Positions 6,323 to 58,601 of a DNA stretch of 64,000 nt are shown piece after piece (positions within the stretch are counted from its first letter, which is position 1; each line of letters starts with the position of its first letter). The translations under genes were made by a program, and so were the position numbers. Under the pieces are notes generated by a model. The model saw only the letters and a program-made list of their open reading frames with translations. It was not told the origin of the DNA and ran no database searches. The stretch is taken from positions 1,054,001 to 1,118,000 of the forward strand of contig NZ_JABBND010000001.1 of NCBI RefSeq assembly GCF_012933465.1, written 5' to 3'. Source of the DNA: Actinomycetospora sp. TBRC 11914 (GTDB lineage Bacteria > Actinomycetota > Actinomycetes > Mycobacteriales > Pseudonocardiaceae).

Positions 6323-6479
6323 GCCGGGCTCGGTGCTGCGCCGCGCGAGCGGCTGACGGTGTGCGCCGCGCACCCAACCCGCGTCCGCCGGCATCCGGGT
6401 TCCGACCGCACCGACGGAGCGGCCGGCTGAGGCGAGAGCCGCGGCGGCGGAGGCGCCAAGGGCCTCGGCGCCGCCGCGA

Positions 6480-6534
6480 GGGAGTCACCATGCGTCGATC
6501 GGATCTCCACCGACCGCGCAGCGACTCCCTGATC
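6480..6534. repeat. Imperfect palindromic repeat, copy 1
   Basis: Begins GGGAGTC and ends GACTCCC, with inner arms TGCGTCGATCGG and CCGACCGCGCA that also pair, so the unit can fold into one long imperfect hairpin. It matches copy 2, exactly 150 bases downstream, at its two ends and in the central GGATCTCCACCGACC. Confidence 0.6.
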
Positions 6535-6629
6535 ATCGATCCACGCCGAGTGGGTGTTCGGCGCCCAACCGACGTTCGGTTCCGCCCGCACCGACGCGCG
6601 GCGCACACAACCGTGTCGGCTCTCGAAGA

Positions 6630-6684
6630 AGGAGTCACCACACGGCATCCGGATCTCCACCGACCGGCCAGCGACTCCCTGATC
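6630..6684. repeat. Imperfect palindromic repeat, copy 2
   Basis: Shares GGAGTCACCA, GGATCTCCACCGACCG and GCGACTCCCTGATC with copy 1, while the left inner arm has diverged. The outer GGAGTC/GACTCC arms are kept. This pattern suggests the ends and the structure matter more than the inner sequence. Confidence 0.55.
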
Positions 6685-6878
6685 TTCGGCCCGGCCGGCT
6701 GAGATGTGTGCGCGGCGCGTCGGTTCTCCCAGACCCGATCGACGCGCGACCCGCGGTGTGTGTGCGGCGCGTCGGTCACCGAGGGCACCACCGACACCCG
6801 AGCGACCGGCCCGGAACGCGGACGCGCCCCGAGCCCCGGTCGGCGCCGAGGGAGGGGGAAGCGCAGACCGGGACGACC

Positions 6879-24713: not shown

Positions 24714-25404
24714 CGTGCCCCTGCAGAGCCCGCGGCGCGGCAGCGTCATCGGTGACGTGATTGCCCAGATGGAGACGATGGTCGTCTCCGGGGAGTGGCC
24801 GGTCGGGACGCGGATCCCGCCGGAACCGGAGCTGGTGGCGGCCCTCGGCGTCGGGCGGAACTCCGTGCGCGAGGCCGTCCGGGCGCTGGCGCACACCGGG
24901 ATGCTCGAGGTCCGCCAGGGCGACGGCACCTGGGTGCGGGCCGCGAGCGGCCTGGGCACGGTCCTCGACCGCTACGTCCGGCGTGCCGACGCCCGCCACG
25001 TCCTCGAGGTCCGGCGTGGCCTGGAGCGGGAGGCCGCGCGGCTCGCCGCCCGCCGCCGGACCGACGACGACCTCGAGCGGCTCACCGCGGCGCTGGCCCG
25101 CCAGCACGAGCTGGCCGCGGCCGACGACCCGGCCGGCTTCGTGCGCGGCGACCTCGAGTTCCACCGGCTGGTCGCGGCGGCCGCCCACAACCCCGTGCTC
25201 ACCGACCTGCTCGACCACCTCGGCGAGGCGCTCACCGACACGATCGCCGTCACCGTCGACGCGCAGCGCGCCGTCGGCTCGCCCCGGTTCCACGTGCACA
25301 CCGACCTGCTCGACGCCGTCCGCGCCGGCGACGCGGACGCCGCGGGCCGCGCCTCGGACGCCCTGCTCGACGAGCTCCTCGCCCTCCTCGGGGATCCGGC
25401 GTGA
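24706..25404 (+). CDS. GntR/FadR-subfamily transcriptional regulator
   Basis: A 232-residue regulator. Residues 12-75 form the winged helix-turn-helix (GTRIPPEPELVAALGVGRNS, then SVREAVRALAHTGMLEVRQG). Residues 90-225 form the all-helical FCD ligand domain with DLEFHRLVAAAAHNPVL and FHVHTDLLDAV, whose Asp and His residues usually bind a metal and an organic acid. ATG 24706 lies in the operator and would make the transcript leaderless or nearly so; GTG 24715 with AGGA 8 bases upstream is an alternative. The stop overlaps the MFS transporter start by 4 bases, so it probably controls that transporter. Confidence 0.88.
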   Translation: MSGVPLQSPRRGSVIGDVIAQMETMVVSGEWPVGTRIPPEPELVAALGVGRNSVREAVRALAHTGMLEVRQGDGTWVRAASGLGTVLDRYVRRADARHVLEVRRGLEREAARLAARRRTDDDLERLTAALARQHELAAADDPAGFVRGDLEFHRLVAAAAHNPVLTDLLDHLGEALTDTIAVTVDAQRAVGSPRFHVHTDLLDAVRAGDADAAGRASDALLDELLALLGDPA

Positions 25405-27023
25405 GCCGGGCCCGCACGGCGGCGCTGGTGGTCGCGGTCCTACTGATCGCGCTGAACCTGCGCCCGGCCGTCGTCGCCGTCTCCCCGCTGCTGTCGCAGA
25501 TCCGGACCGACCTCGGCATCGGCGGCGCCGTCGGCGGCCTGCTCACGACCCTGCCGGTGCTCTGCTTCGGCCTCCTCGCGCCGTTCGCGGGACGGTTCGC
25601 CCGCCGGATCGGGCTCGAGACGACCCTGTTCGTCGCGCTGCTCGTGCTCGGGGCGGGCATCCTCGTGCGGCTCGTGCCGGCGCTCGGCGCGGTGCTCGCC
25701 GGCAGCGTGCTCGCCGGGATCGCGATCGCCATCGGCAACACGCTGATGCCGGTGGTCGTCAAGCGCGACTTCCCGCACCGCACCGGCGTGATGACCGGCG
25801 CGTACTCGACGATGATCTCCGGCGGCGGCGCGCTGGCCGCGGCGGTGATGGTGCCCGTCGAGCACGCGACGGGACTCGGGTGGCGCCCGTCGCTGGCGCT
25901 GTGGGCCGTGCTCGTGGCGCTCGCGCTGGTGCTCTGGCTCCCCTGGGTGGTCCGCGCCCGCCGTCGGGCGGCCGCCGCGCCGCCCGCCGCCCCGGCGGCC
26001 CCGGTGCGCGGACTGTGGGGCAGCGCGCTCGCGTGGCAGGTCACGCTGTTCATGGGGCTGCAGTCGCTGCAGTTCTACGCGCTCACCGCCTGGGCCCCGA
26101 CGATCTTCGTCGACGGCGGCCGCTCCGCGACCGCGGCCGGGCTGCTGCTCTCCCTCGCCGGGGTCTCCTCGCTGGTGACCTCCGCGATCACCCCGGTGCT
26201 GGCCGCCCGCGCCCGCCGTCAGCACCACCTCGTCGTGCTGCTGCTCGCGCTCTGGGTGGTCGGCTACCTCGGGCTACTGCTCGCGCCGGGTGCCCTCGCG
26301 CCGCTGTGGATGGTGCTCATCGGGCTCGGGCAGGGCGTGGGCATCAGCCTCGGCCTGACCCTGATCACGCTGCGCTCCCCCGACGCGGCCCACACCTCGG
26401 AGCTCTCGGGGATGGCCCAGGGCGTGGGCTACGTGCTCGCCGCGGCCGGCCCGCTCGCGCTCGGCGCGATCCACGACGCCACCGGCGGCTGGACCGTCCC
26501 GATCGCCACGCTGCTCGTGCTGCTGGTCCCGCTCGCGGTGGCCGGAGCCGGGGCGGCGCGGAACCGGCACGTCTCGGGAACGGGGCACCCCACCGCCGAT
26601 CCCGCCCCCGACGGAAGCAATGGCGCATTCCTCCCACCCGGCGACAGGACGGCGCCACTCGCTCACGACGACGGCCCGGCCCCGGCCCCGGCCCCGTCCG
26701 GAAGCAATGGCGCATTCCTCCCGCCCGGCGACAGGACGGCGCCACTCCCTCACGACGGGGTGCGCCCCACCCTGCGCGGCACCGTGCGTACGGCGGGCGG
26801 AGCCCCGCTCCCCGGCGCGACCGTCACCCTCGTCGACGACCACGGCCACCAGCTCGGGGCGATGCGTACCGACGAGGCCGGCGACTACGAGGTACCCGTG
26901 CCGCCGACCCCGTGCATGCTGGTGTGCGCCGCGCCCGAGCACTCTCCCGTCGCCCGGCGGGCCGCCCCCGGCCGGGTCGACGTCGTGCTCGAGCCGCGCC
27001 CGGCCCCCGTCGTCGGGACCTGA
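25401..27023 (+). CDS. CynX-type 12-TM MFS transporter with C-terminal regulatory-like module
   Basis: A 540-residue protein. Residues 1-395 are a 12-helix MFS domain of the cyanate/CynX type (ALNLRPAVVAVSPLL in helix 1; GNTLMPVVVKRDFP before helix 5). Residues 400-453 are a low-complexity linker that contains two near-identical copies of a 59-bp DNA repeat (residues about 405-423 and 434-452). Residues 455-540 form a carboxypeptidase-regulatory-like module (LRGTVRTAGGAPLPGATVTL...), the same type as at 4.5-9 kb. GTG start overlaps the GntR stop (GTGA). Substrate unknown, perhaps a small organic anion or drug. Confidence 0.85.
   Translation: MSRARTAALVVAVLLIALNLRPAVVAVSPLLSQIRTDLGIGGAVGGLLTTLPVLCFGLLAPFAGRFARRIGLETTLFVALLVLGAGILVRLVPALGAVLAGSVLAGIAIAIGNTLMPVVVKRDFPHRTGVMTGAYSTMISGGGALAAAVMVPVEHATGLGWRPSLALWAVLVALALVLWLPWVVRARRRAAAAPPAAPAAPVRGLWGSALAWQVTLFMGLQSLQFYALTAWAPTIFVDGGRSATAAGLLLSLAGVSSLVTSAITPVLAARARRQHHLVVLLLALWVVGYLGLLLAPGALAPLWMVLIGLGQGVGISLGLTLITLRSPDAAHTSELSGMAQGVGYVLAAAGPLALGAIHDATGGWTVPIATLLVLLVPLAVAGAGAARNRHVSGTGHPTADPAPDGSNGAFLPPGDRTAPLAHDDGPAPAPAPSGSNGAFLPPGDRTAPLPHDGVRPTLRGTVRTAGGAPLPGATVTLVDDHGHQLGAMRTDEAGDYEVPVPPTPCMLVCAAPEHSPVARRAAPGRVDVVLEPRPAPVVGT
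26612..26670 (+). repeat. 59-bp palindromic repeat inside a coding linker, copy A
   Basis: Contains TGGCGC...GCGCCA and inner TCCT...AGGA arms, so it can form a hairpin. It is read in frame as the start of a Gly-Ser-Asn-Gly segment ending in His-Asp. It differs from copy B (87 bases, exactly 29 codons, downstream) at only two positions. Confidence 0.8.
26699..26757 (+). repeat. 59-bp palindromic repeat inside a coding linker, copy B
   Basis: Near-identical to copy A and in the same reading frame. Together they build most of the linker between the transporter and its C-terminal module. A third, more diverged copy lies in an intergenic gap at 58544-58601. Confidence 0.8.
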
Positions 27024-46149: not shown

Positions 46150-46311
46150 GCGCGGGATCGTAGAACGGTCAGCCCGGACCGGTTCGGCGTGATGGCCCAC
46201 GCCACCGGGGCGAGCGGGCCGGATCGGTTCAGGTCGGGGCCACCGGGACCGCCGCCCGACGACCGTTCGGTGACCACGAGCACACGGCGCAGCCGCGGAG
46301 CGCGGCGCGGA

Positions 46312-46427
46312 TGCGCCCCGTGCCCCTCGCCGCAGCGGAGCGGACCCCCCGGGCCGGCCGCCGACCACCAGGGGCGCACCACGCACCCGCGGAGCCCCGC
46401 GGACCTGCGCCCCGTGCCCCTCGCCGC
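46312..46427. repeat. 22-bp direct repeat within a duplicated intergenic stretch
   Basis: TGCGCCCCGTGCCCCTCGCC recurs at 46312 and 46406 (22 bp identical, ending in GC), embedded in a roughly 75-bp partly duplicated segment. It lies between the aroF stop and the mutA start; nothing else was recognised in this 298-base gap. Confidence 0.6.
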
Positions 46428-50460: not shown

Positions 50461-50913
50461 GTGAGCCAGGGGTCCCCCGCCACCGCGCGGCAGCGCCCGC
50501 GTCCGTCCCTGCTCTACGCGGTCAAGCAGGTCGAGCTGATCGTGCGGGCGCACCTCGACGACCTGCTGCGCGACTCCGGGGTGACCGCGCTGCAGTACAC
50601 CGCGCTGACCGTCCTGGCCCGCCGCGACGGGCTGACCTCCGCCGAGCTCGCCCGCAACTCGTTCGTGACGCCGCAGGCGATGGCCGACCTGGTGAACTCC
50701 CTGGAGCGCGGCGGTTTCATCGTGCGCCGCCGCAACCCCGAGAACCGCCGCCAACTGCTGATCAGCCTCACGGCCGACGGCGACGCGCTCCTGGCACGGT
50801 TCGACGACCCGGTGGCGCGGATCGAGACCCGGATGCTCGACGGGTTCGACGACGCCGACCGGGAGCGGTTCCGCGACTACCTCAACCGGGCGCGGTCGTC
50901 GTTGGAGGGTTAG
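50461..50913 (+). CDS. MarR-family regulator
   Basis: A 150-residue winged helix-turn-helix regulator. LTSAELARNSFVTPQAMADL is the recognition region, and IVRRRNPENRRQLLISLTAD the wing. MarR proteins next to hydroxycinnamate genes often sense the CoA thioester of the substrate. It lies between matB (divergent) and fcs (convergent, overlapping its 3' end by 32 bases), so it may regulate either or both; the perfect operator upstream of ech favours the hydroxycinnamate genes. GTG start without an obvious ribosome site. Confidence 0.85.
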   Translation: MSQGSPATARQRPRPSLLYAVKQVELIVRAHLDDLLRDSGVTALQYTALTVLARRDGLTSAELARNSFVTPQAMADLVNSLERGGFIVRRRNPENRRQLLISLTADGDALLARFDDPVARIETRMLDGFDDADRERFRDYLNRARSSLEG

Positions 50914-52387
50914 GACCCCGCCGGGCGCGCAGCGCGACCTTGTCGAGCTTCCCGGTCGGGTTGCGGGGCAGGGCGTCGACGACCTCGACGGTGCGCGGGT
51001 GCTTGAACCGCGCGAGCCGGCCGTCGAGGAACGCGACGACGTCGGCCGGGGTCGCGGTGGCGCCCTCGGCGAGCACCACCCACGCGTGCCCGGTCTCGCC
51101 CCACCGCTCGTCCGGCACCCCGACCACCGCCGCGTCGACGACGTCCGGGTGCCCGACGAGCACCCCCTCCACCTCCGCGGGCGAGACGTTCTCGCCGCCG
51201 GAGATGTAGAGGTCCTTGACCCGGTCGACGATGCGGTGGAAGCCCTCGTCGTCGACGGTCGCGACGTCGCCCGAGCGGAACCAGCCCTCGTCGTCGAACG
51301 CCGCCCCGGTCTCGGCGGTGCGCCGCCAGTACCCGTCGACGACGTTCGGGCCGCGGACGAGGATCTCGCCCGCGTCGGAGAGCCGGACGTCGGAGAAGAA
51401 GTGCGGCCGGCCCGCGGTGCCGGTCTTCTCGCGGGCGTGCTCGCGGTCGAGCAGCAGGACGCCGGGCGCGGCCTCGGTCATGCCGTAGCCCTGCAGGAAC
51501 ACGAGCCCCCGCGCGGCGTAGGTCTCGAGCAGCGACGGCGGCACCGGCGCGCCGCCGCAGAGCAGGTAGCGCACGCTGGAGAGGTCGGTGCCGGCGAAGC
51601 GCGGTGAGCGGGCGAGCGCCGCGAACATCGTCGGGACCCCGAACATGACCGTCACGCCCTCGGCCGGCACCAGGTCCAGGGTGCGCTCGACGTCGAACGC
51701 CTCCTCGAGCACCAGCGTGCCGCCCTTGAGCAGCACCGGCAGGCACGTCATCCCGAGCGCCGCGGCGTGGAAGAGCGGCGCGGAGAGCAGGCAGACCTCA
51801 TCGCGCGCGAGGTCGACGTCGACGAGGACGTTGAGGGCGTTCCAGGTCAGGTTCGCGTGGGAGAGCCGCGCCGCCTTGGGCCGGCCGGTGGTGCCGGAGG
51901 TGTAGAGGAGGACGGCGGTGTGGTCGGGGTCGACGTCGACCGGGTCCCGACGATCCGTGGTGGCGGCGATCAGCTCGTCGTAGGTTCCGCCGACCTCCAG
52001 TGTCAGGAACGTGGCGTTGCTGTCACTCGGTGTCCGCAACGACTCTTTCCTGACATCGGCCGCGTGGACGAGGACGCGCGCCTCGGTGTCGGCCAGCGCG
52101 AACACGTGCTCGTCGGGCGCGAGCCGGACGTTGAGCGGGACGAACACCGCGCCGAGGGCCGTCGTCGCGAACAGGGTCTCGACGAAGGCCGGGTGGTTCG
52201 GCCCCAGGTGGGCCACGCGGTCGCCCCGCGCGACGCCGAGACCGGCGAGCCCGGCCGCCAGCGCCCGCGCGCGGTCGTCGAGCTCCGCGTAGGTGACCCG
52301 ACGGGCGCCGTGGACCAGCGCCGTGCGCTCCGGCGTCGCGCGGGCCCGCCGGGCGGTCCAGGAGCCGAGGCCGGGCGGCGGGGTCAT
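50882..52387 (-). CDS. fcs: Hydroxycinnamoyl (feruloyl/p-coumaroyl)-CoA synthetase, with in-frame palindromic insert
   Basis: A 501-residue ANL ligase. AVLLYTSGTTGRPKAARLSH is the phosphate loop, QGYGMTEAAPG the aromatic motif, GWFRSGDVA the Asp region, DLYISGGENVSPAEVE the hinge and PTGKLDKVALR the catalytic Lys. Substrate is inferred from context: the next gene upstream in the operon (3-base gap) is a clear hydroxycinnamoyl-CoA hydratase-lyase. Around residues 111-130 the protein reads VRKESLRTPSDSNATFLTLE, an atypical Lys/Ser/Thr-rich segment encoded by a DNA palindrome (52001-52055). A general fatty acyl-CoA ligase is the alternative. It overlaps the convergent MarR gene. Confidence 0.78.
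   Translation of the reverse strand: MTPPPGLGSWTARRARATPERTALVHGARRVTYAELDDRARALAAGLAGLGVARGDRVAHLGPNHPAFVETLFATTALGAVFVPLNVRLAPDEHVFALADTEARVLVHAADVRKESLRTPSDSNATFLTLEVGGTYDELIAATTDRRDPVDVDPDHTAVLLYTSGTTGRPKAARLSHANLTWNALNVLVDVDLARDEVCLLSAPLFHAAALGMTCLPVLLKGGTLVLEEAFDVERTLDLVPAEGVTVMFGVPTMFAALARSPRFAGTDLSSVRYLLCGGAPVPPSLLETYAARGLVFLQGYGMTEAAPGVLLLDREHAREKTGTAGRPHFFSDVRLSDAGEILVRGPNVVDGYWRRTAETGAAFDDEGWFRSGDVATVDDEGFHRIVDRVKDLYISGGENVSPAEVEGVLVGHPDVVDAAVVGVPDERWGETGHAWVVLAEGATATPADVVAFLDGRLARFKHPRTVEVVDALPRNPTGKLDKVALRARRGPNPPTTTAPG
52001..52055. repeat. Palindromic element within the fcs coding sequence
   Basis: TGTCAGGAA/TTCCTGACA outer arms (perfect, 9 bp) and GTTGC/GCAAC inner arms around a TGTCACTCGGTGTCC centre. 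It is AT-richer than the flanking coding DNA and translates to a segment foreign to the family. Confidence 0.7.
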
Positions 52388-53314: not shown

Positions 53315-53421
53315 GATTGCGCGGTGGTGCGGGCGGGGTCACGCCGGTCGTGATCACGAGGACGTCGGGCAGGCCGAACGACCCGCGGACCTGCCCCACG
53401 TACCCCTCGACCCGTCAGGGG

Positions 53422-58521: not shown

Positions 58522-58543
58522 CGGCGCCCCTCGCCCCCGTGCC

Positions 58544-58601
58544 AGCAATGGCACATTCCTCCCGTCCAGCGCCAGAACGGCGCCGCTCACCCACCGACGG
58601 G
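58544..58601 (+). repeat. Third copy of the palindromic repeat, intergenic
   Basis: AGCAATGGCACATTCCTCCCG starts the copy (first 20 bases shown as AGCAATGGCACATTCCTCCC); it continues through AACGGCGCCGCTCA and aligns along its length with the two coding copies at 26.6-26.8 kb, with about ten mismatches. It lies 22 bases after the IclR stop. Confidence 0.65.

Follow-up and report, generated by a model that had tools for sequence, protein, structure and literature searches.

A dyad-symmetric repeat of about 50 bp in Actinomycetospora, found between genes and in coding linkers, with species-specific types at shared sites

The window (the whole stretch of 64,000 nucleotides of Actinomycetospora sp. 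TBRC 11914 analysed here) contains copies of a palindromic repeat of about 50 bp, which is probably an interspersed, non-autonomous element specific to the genus that works in the manner of REPs or of Rickettsia palindromic elements (RPEs). The repeat is not a demonstrated member of either class. With one exception, copies that occupy the same site in two species are no more alike than unrelated copies. A sequence-only reading of the window had proposed a mobile or amplified palindromic element that supplies protein sequence. The dispersal of the repeat on both strands, with 39 of 46 clusters outside genes, bears out the element itself, but the coding copies turned out to be a minority. We infer mobility from this dispersal and from sites that lack a copy in a relative.

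The copies in the window, the gene that holds two of them and a further candidate are as follows.
25401-27023 (+), MFS transporter gene by our own gene call; MFS_1 with a C-terminal CarboxypepD_reg
26612-26670 (+), coding copy 1 of the repeat; top-strand frame 0, MFS linker; R1 profile E 7.3e-17
26699-26757 (+), coding copy 2 of the repeat; frame as in copy 1; R1 profile E 6.7e-16
58540-58598 (+), copy between genes, 22 bp downstream of a called stop codon; R1 profile E 2.1e-17
51994-52070 (no strand assigned), possible decayed inverted pair of half-elements; R1 E 0.002 and 0.006, borderline

A Pfam search with the protein of 25401-27023 placed MFS_1 (PF07690) at residues 26-346 (E 1.2e-26) and CarboxypepD_reg (PF13620) at residues 457-520 (E 6.2e-11). 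As had been read from the letters, the two 59-bp coding copies have 2 mismatches, start 87 bp (29 codons) apart, share one frame of the ORF 25401-27023 and build most of the linker between transporter and module. Coding copy 2 would most simply be a local tandem duplication. The third copy was confirmed as non-coding, since its profile match lies between genes. Both coding copies have the proposed hairpin arms, TGGCGC/GCGCCA and TCCT/AGGA; in the third copy the outer arm is broken (TGGCAC versus GCGCCG). The half-elements at 51994-52070 are weak; they lie inside a gene called at 50882-52387 (-), directly before a TSGTTG motif, and the length of this place also differs in A. endophytica. A second dispersed repeat of 61 bp was observed at 6478-6538 and 6628-6688 of the window (84% alike, GGGAGTC/GACTCCC ends), with a third copy on another contig of the TBRC 11914 genome (L092:3921-3984). 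A further repeat family lies at 46273-46333, 46367-46427 and 53382-53409 of the window and has weaker matches elsewhere in the genome (L081, L062).

The TBRC 11914 genome (6.52 Mb, 63 contigs) was searched with the 14-base pattern GCAATGGCNCATTC, allowing up to one mismatch, and the pattern read backwards was used as a control. We observed 63 matches (34 forward, 29 reverse) compared to 0 for the reversed control, and blastn with the 59-bp unit gave 48 matches. By their left and right cores, 71 copies were selected, two left-left palindromes in L069 and L070 being excluded, and 9 more were added by the sequence-only profile R1, resulting in an examined set of 80 copies in 46 clusters. The three copies in the window thus belong to a family of about 80. 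The repeat core is AGCAATGGCRCATTCCTSSCRYCNGAYGCSAGGACGGCGCCGYTCRCYCRY, and the core-to-core distance was 30 in all 71 copies, allowing a gap-free alignment over 62 columns. Column entropy was symmetric about position 23 (rho 0.64, p 0.001, the best of 18 centres tried). Eleven of 51 columns were invariant, and 569 of 3621 cells differed from the majority, 18 of the 569 being seen once. The repeat occurs as singles and in head-to-tail tandem arrays, in which 24 of 27 intergenic same-strand spacings were 74, 75 or 76 bp. Copy likeness was 0.883 within a cluster, compared to 0.771 between different loci. The mutual information of variable columns was slightly above that of shuffles (20.98 versus 17.65, sd 0.65), indicating that subfamily structure remains; free reassortment of variable positions is therefore not complete, and weak linkage is left.

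We then searched relatives with R1 at E <=0.01, scoring the best 150 candidates per genome. Matches were found in at least 16 of the 18 genomes of the genus. There were at least 92 in TBRC 11914 itself (G000; overlapping partial opposite-strand matches included) and at least 33, 30, 26, 22 and 20, respectively, in G012, A. endophytica TBRC 5722 (G015), G006, A. termitidis Odt1-22 (G007) and A. chiangmaiensis DSM 45062 (G014). At least 15 each were found in A. sp. NBRC 106378 (G001) and G003, at least 14 in the MAG GZL_HY_2_bin.147 (G013; 59% complete), at least 10 in G016, and 0 to 5 in the rest. The GCAATGGCNCATTC pattern was near control level in 99 relatives, the 17 other genomes of the genus having 0 to 4 matches each, and each species carries its own variant of the repeat. 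A family-wide scan with stricter filters found matches at E <=1e-4 in 7 of 120 genomes, five of them of the genus Actinomycetospora. In the relatives' scan, 10 of the 28 stretches came from other genera, with one match each, which we took as chance. In loci of G006, G010, G011 and G012 the matches form a second palindrome (CTGGCGTCNGACGCCAG) that shares the centre but is longer and better; they are 80 to 97% alike mutually, so that the repeats of the genus make up a superfamily whose types differ by clade. We rejected the view that the weak profile matches of G006 and G012 (at least 26 and 33) are noise, since they were real relatives in the four loci looked at. A perfect palindrome of G002, at L146:1501-1560, contains AACGGCGC/GCGCCGTT and may represent a further type of this kind. 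We found no earlier report of Actinomycetospora repeats in the open-licence PMC literature. In the available part of PMC12306157, Actinomycetota are named a single time, in a table.

For 15 of the 46 clusters a flank was present in the A. endophytica DNA compared, and 11 of these were resolved, all but L062, L063, L081 and L082. Five were occupied in A. endophytica, five were without a recognisable copy and one had other palindromes. The sites occupied in both species are listed below.
MFS linker: two copies in TBRC 11914, one in A. endophytica
PutA: one copy in each
LytB: two copies in TBRC 11914, one partial copy in A. endophytica (weak, E 0.038)
L067: two copies in TBRC 11914, one in A. endophytica
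L194: two copies in TBRC 11914, one in A. endophytica, beside which there is about 1.9 kb more

No recognisable copy was found in A. endophytica at L065, L068, L195, L198 or window position 58540. The matching flanks of L065, L068 and L198 lie within about 12 bp of each other in that species, and those of L195 and window 58540 are separated by diverged DNA. At L197, where TBRC 11914 has two copies, A. endophytica has other palindromic repeats (GAAGGGCACCTTCG type, L276:13791-13944). No target-site duplication was clear by eye in the alignments of shared and empty sites, the flanks of which have diverged. At the MFS site the distance from anchor to element is 49 nt in both species, so that the A. 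endophytica copy sits at the same base and in the same frame; at the PutA site it is 17 nt in both.

MFS orthologues with and without the repeat were also compared. The orthologues of G014, G001, G016 and G003 end after the transporter, that of G007 includes the C-terminal module but no copy that the profile recognises at E up to 1, and the contig of G013 ends early. We did not find the same linker peptide written in other codons among the MFS orthologues aligned, and the A. endophytica copy, at the same base, is of that species' own type. The fusion of transporter and CarboxypepD_reg is common to the window, A. endophytica and A. termitidis, G001, G003, G014 and G016 being without it. In the PutA linker, for which 16 orthologues were aligned (2 of the 18 genomes are without the locus), a recognisable copy was present in TBRC 11914 and A. 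endophytica. An insert equal in length is present at this place in G013 but is not recognised by the profile, eight orthologues have a short linker, G009, G010 and G011 carry another insert, and G002 and G017 (L242, L243) have a long in-frame palindrome of different sequence, as judged by eye. For LytB, inspection by eye showed two or three half-units in G001 and G014, each of its own type, and none in G006. The AMP-binding enzyme of A. endophytica gave a partial match (E 0.002), the others having short or unlike stretches. At L071 there are two copies in TBRC 11914 and one in G013; at L094, the two plus two copies of G001 are arranged and oriented as in TBRC 11914.

In a further step, copies at the MFS, PutA, L067 and L194 sites were scored for species type by log-odds, the LytB and AMP-binding copies being left out. 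The TBRC 11914 copies scored 15.1 and 13.2 (MFS), 23.0 (PutA) and 19.2 and 17.0 (L067); those of A. endophytica scored -19.3 (MFS), -23.8 (PutA), -17.3 (L067) and -11.3 (L194). Other copies ranged from 10.2 to 27.7 in TBRC 11914 (64 copies) and from -27.6 to -10.7 in A. endophytica (9 copies), ranges that are flattered because these copies served as training. At eight diagnostic positions both window copies were ambiguous (3 own-type versus 3 A. endophytica-type), the log-odds being clear. Site memory was measured as the fraction of unrelated own copies that are at least as similar as the orthologous copy. Ten shared-site comparisons with G015, G013, G014 or G001, four of them at two clusters of L094 and leaving out a handful of relative copies that were gapped or matched over a short stretch, gave fractions of 0.42, 0.69, 0.26, 0.01, 0.54, 0.67, 0.75, 0.16, 0.70 and 0.55, with a mean near 0.48. 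The exception with site memory is L067 (0.01). The orthology of the G014 pair (L075, L182) is uncertain since its flanks are only 73 to 77% identical, and because relative copies were found with the own-family model, the contrast should be conservative. An identical insertion point combined with species-specific sequence points either to genome-wide homogenisation or to copies that follow a changing recognition factor. The species type at shared sites suggests that the copies evolve in concert, or that selection on the DNA follows the species.

We next considered whether the dyad behaves as a helix or as a DNA site. Read as a helix, it paired in 82.3% of cells, compared to 28 to 49% with the partner slid. 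There was no compensatory covariation in the dyad (score 0.111 versus 0.115 in shuffles; paired cells 82.3% versus 82.7%). A hairpin kept by pairing was rejected, since covariation was lacking both in the whole dyad and in an alternative 5' hairpin. The hairpin had been proposed for folding as RNA and DNA; it folds modestly better than dinucleotide shuffles (mean z of -1.5 and -1.4 for RNA, -0.9 and -1.0 for DNA), but it is not kept by compensatory change. The absent covariation fits better with a recognised DNA dyad than with a selected hairpin.

A possible history of the MFS linker can be outlined. The repeat would have entered it before TBRC 11914 and A. endophytica split, may then have been duplicated in tandem in the TBRC 11914 species, and gene conversion or templated re-copying would later have brought the copies into line with the local family. 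A sequence-specific factor recognising the double-stranded dyad may drive or permit both spread and homogenisation. Higgins et al. in 1988 reportedly raised a gene-conversion origin of REPs. It is quite possible, if somewhat short of probable, that in each species a genome-wide process acting through a dyad-recognising factor other than RAYT rewrites the copies in step, those predicted to be translated included, so that unrelated linker peptides evolve with intergenic DNA and not with their orthologues.

Selection could also account for part of these observations. If each copy were a putative site for a dimeric DNA-binding protein, such as a chromosome organiser, whose specificity shifts between species, selection without conversion would produce species-specific types, and coding copies would be tolerated bystanders. 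The dyad-symmetric variability, the lack of base-pair covariation and the 11 invariant columns among 51 are consistent with such sites. However, the greater likeness within clusters shows local copying, copies in linkers predicted to be translated follow the same type, and many sites are absent in a close relative; we thus consider host binding sites unlikely. Homogenisation is favoured over selection on the basis of the likeness of 0.883 within a cluster compared to 0.771 between loci. Conversion is not separated from selection by the pattern of changes, since the invariant columns and the 18 once-seen among 569 changes fit strong constraint as well.

The placement of the repeat was analysed using gene calls from our own codon-model caller. 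The repeat was strongly under-represented in genes, with 7 of 46 clusters touching called genes compared to a coding fraction of 89.5% in the first set of loci. The 39 intergenic clusters lay between unidirectional (17), convergent (16) and divergent genes (6), and convergent regions were enriched (16 of 39 versus 13 of 151 other intergenic regions of at least 60 bp in the same loci, p 6e-6). Readthrough of upstream genes into the repeat was rejected, since distances past stop codons were not in a single phase. At the RNA level, the repeat might end transcripts or stabilise their 3' ends, a role that has been proposed for some REPs. Such a role would agree with the enrichment of convergent regions, with the RNA folds and with the frequent position of first copies some tens of bases downstream of a stop codon. 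Such an RNA element is nevertheless improbable, given that the copy nearest a gene end showed no orientation bias (18 in the gene's orientation, 15 opposite), that covariation was absent and that no Rfam family matched the four loci scanned at E up to 1.

In six clusters, in-frame read-through of the repeat is predicted, in four reading frames, and the seventh overlaps a start codon.
Window: MFS linker, top frame 0
L064: PutA-like protein, between Pro_dh and Aldedh
L066: LytB-like protein, upstream of the LYTB domain, antisense
L071: ORF without Pfam match
L082: AMP-binding enzyme, within the region matched by the AMP-binding domain, antisense
L091: histidine kinase, just after HATPase_c, antisense
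L088: overlaps a called start codon

The frames used in genes were top 0, top 1, bottom 0 and bottom 1, in which a stop occurred in 0, 1, 4 and 12 of 71 copies, respectively; in the two unused frames it occurred in 12 and 27 of 71. Same-strand spacing was a multiple of three in 5 of 5 in-gene pairs compared to 11 of 27 intergenic pairs (p 0.022). Linkers may tolerate the repeat because of its constant length and because four of its six frames are mostly stop-free. Variability per codon position in the MFS frame was 0.45, 0.34 and 0.73, highest at the third (permutation p 0.04), as would be expected if the linker peptide itself were the selected repeat. Since third codon positions coincide with the dyad axis, this periodicity is not independent coding evidence. 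The use of four frames, sense and antisense, argues against a single conserved peptide, as do the 39 intergenic clusters and the 16 of 27 intergenic spacings that break the frame. A conserved linker peptide was thus ruled out as an explanation, and protein-level conservation appears very improbable. The dispersal, the sites without a copy and the frame-preserving use together indicate a DNA element and not a peptide family. Chance similarity, or an artefact of GC-rich sequence or assembly, is practically negligible, being backed by nothing beyond a GC-rich genome in 63 contigs and opposed by the 63 versus 0 matches of pattern and control and by the presence of the family in independently assembled relatives.

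Like REPs of the GTAG and CGTC classes, the repeat is short, high-copy and palindromic and lies mostly between convergent or unidirectional genes; it is mainly extragenic and near gene ends (80 copies, 46 clusters, 39 intergenic). It differs from REPs in its common head-to-tail tandem arrays and in having no compensatory pairing, no RAYT and no end tag. Y1_Tnp/RAYT (PF01797) was found in 0 of 18 genomes of the genus, 5 of 14 control genomes being positive, and a RAYT-driven REP was rejected on this basis. GTAG was present in 0 of 71 copies, and CGTC in the 3' end region of 11 of 71 and in the 5' end region of 0 of 71. Lacking both a Y1/RAYT gene and a GTAG/CGTC end tag, the repeat stands outside the known REP classes. 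The available part of PMC3733652 reports intragenic REPs in linkers and CGTC REPs that are likewise without a dedicated transposase.

Similarly to RPEs, the repeat is palindromic and is found both elsewhere and in frame in genes of unrelated function, linkers or loops taking both; its predicted in-frame read-through concerns MFS, PutA-like, LytB-like, AMP-binding and histidine kinase proteins and one ORF without Pfam match. RPEs are described, in the available part of PMC10969869, as ten families of about 150 bp with nearly half in genes. In contrast, and as far as a comparison by description goes, the Actinomycetospora repeat is one family of about 50 bp, uses four frames, touches genes in 7 of 46 clusters, resides in a free-living high-GC actinomycete and shows the species-type effect at shared sites. 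MITEs are, according to the same part of PMC10969869, short non-autonomous dispersed repeats able to fuse in frame with genes, as the present repeat is. MITEs are further marked by a duplicated target site and by terminal inverted repeats that match those of an insertion sequence; in the present alignments, with their diverged flanks, no clear duplication was seen by eye. MIRUs are actinobacterial, intergenic, head-to-tail units of broadly similar length to the repeat. MIRUs are not known to be palindromic or to insert in frame into linkers.

The best-known palindromic repeats that lie in frame within genes are those of the obligately intracellular genus Rickettsia. Comparable in-frame repeats are now found in a free-living high-GC actinomycete genus, in which relatives at several distances are at hand for comparison. 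Since no RAYT was found in the 18 genomes of the genus, the repeats also offer a way to discover the agent behind them. Homogenisation by conversion, and its effects on proteins, could be tested directly at the insertion points that agree between species in base and frame but hold species-specific sequence.
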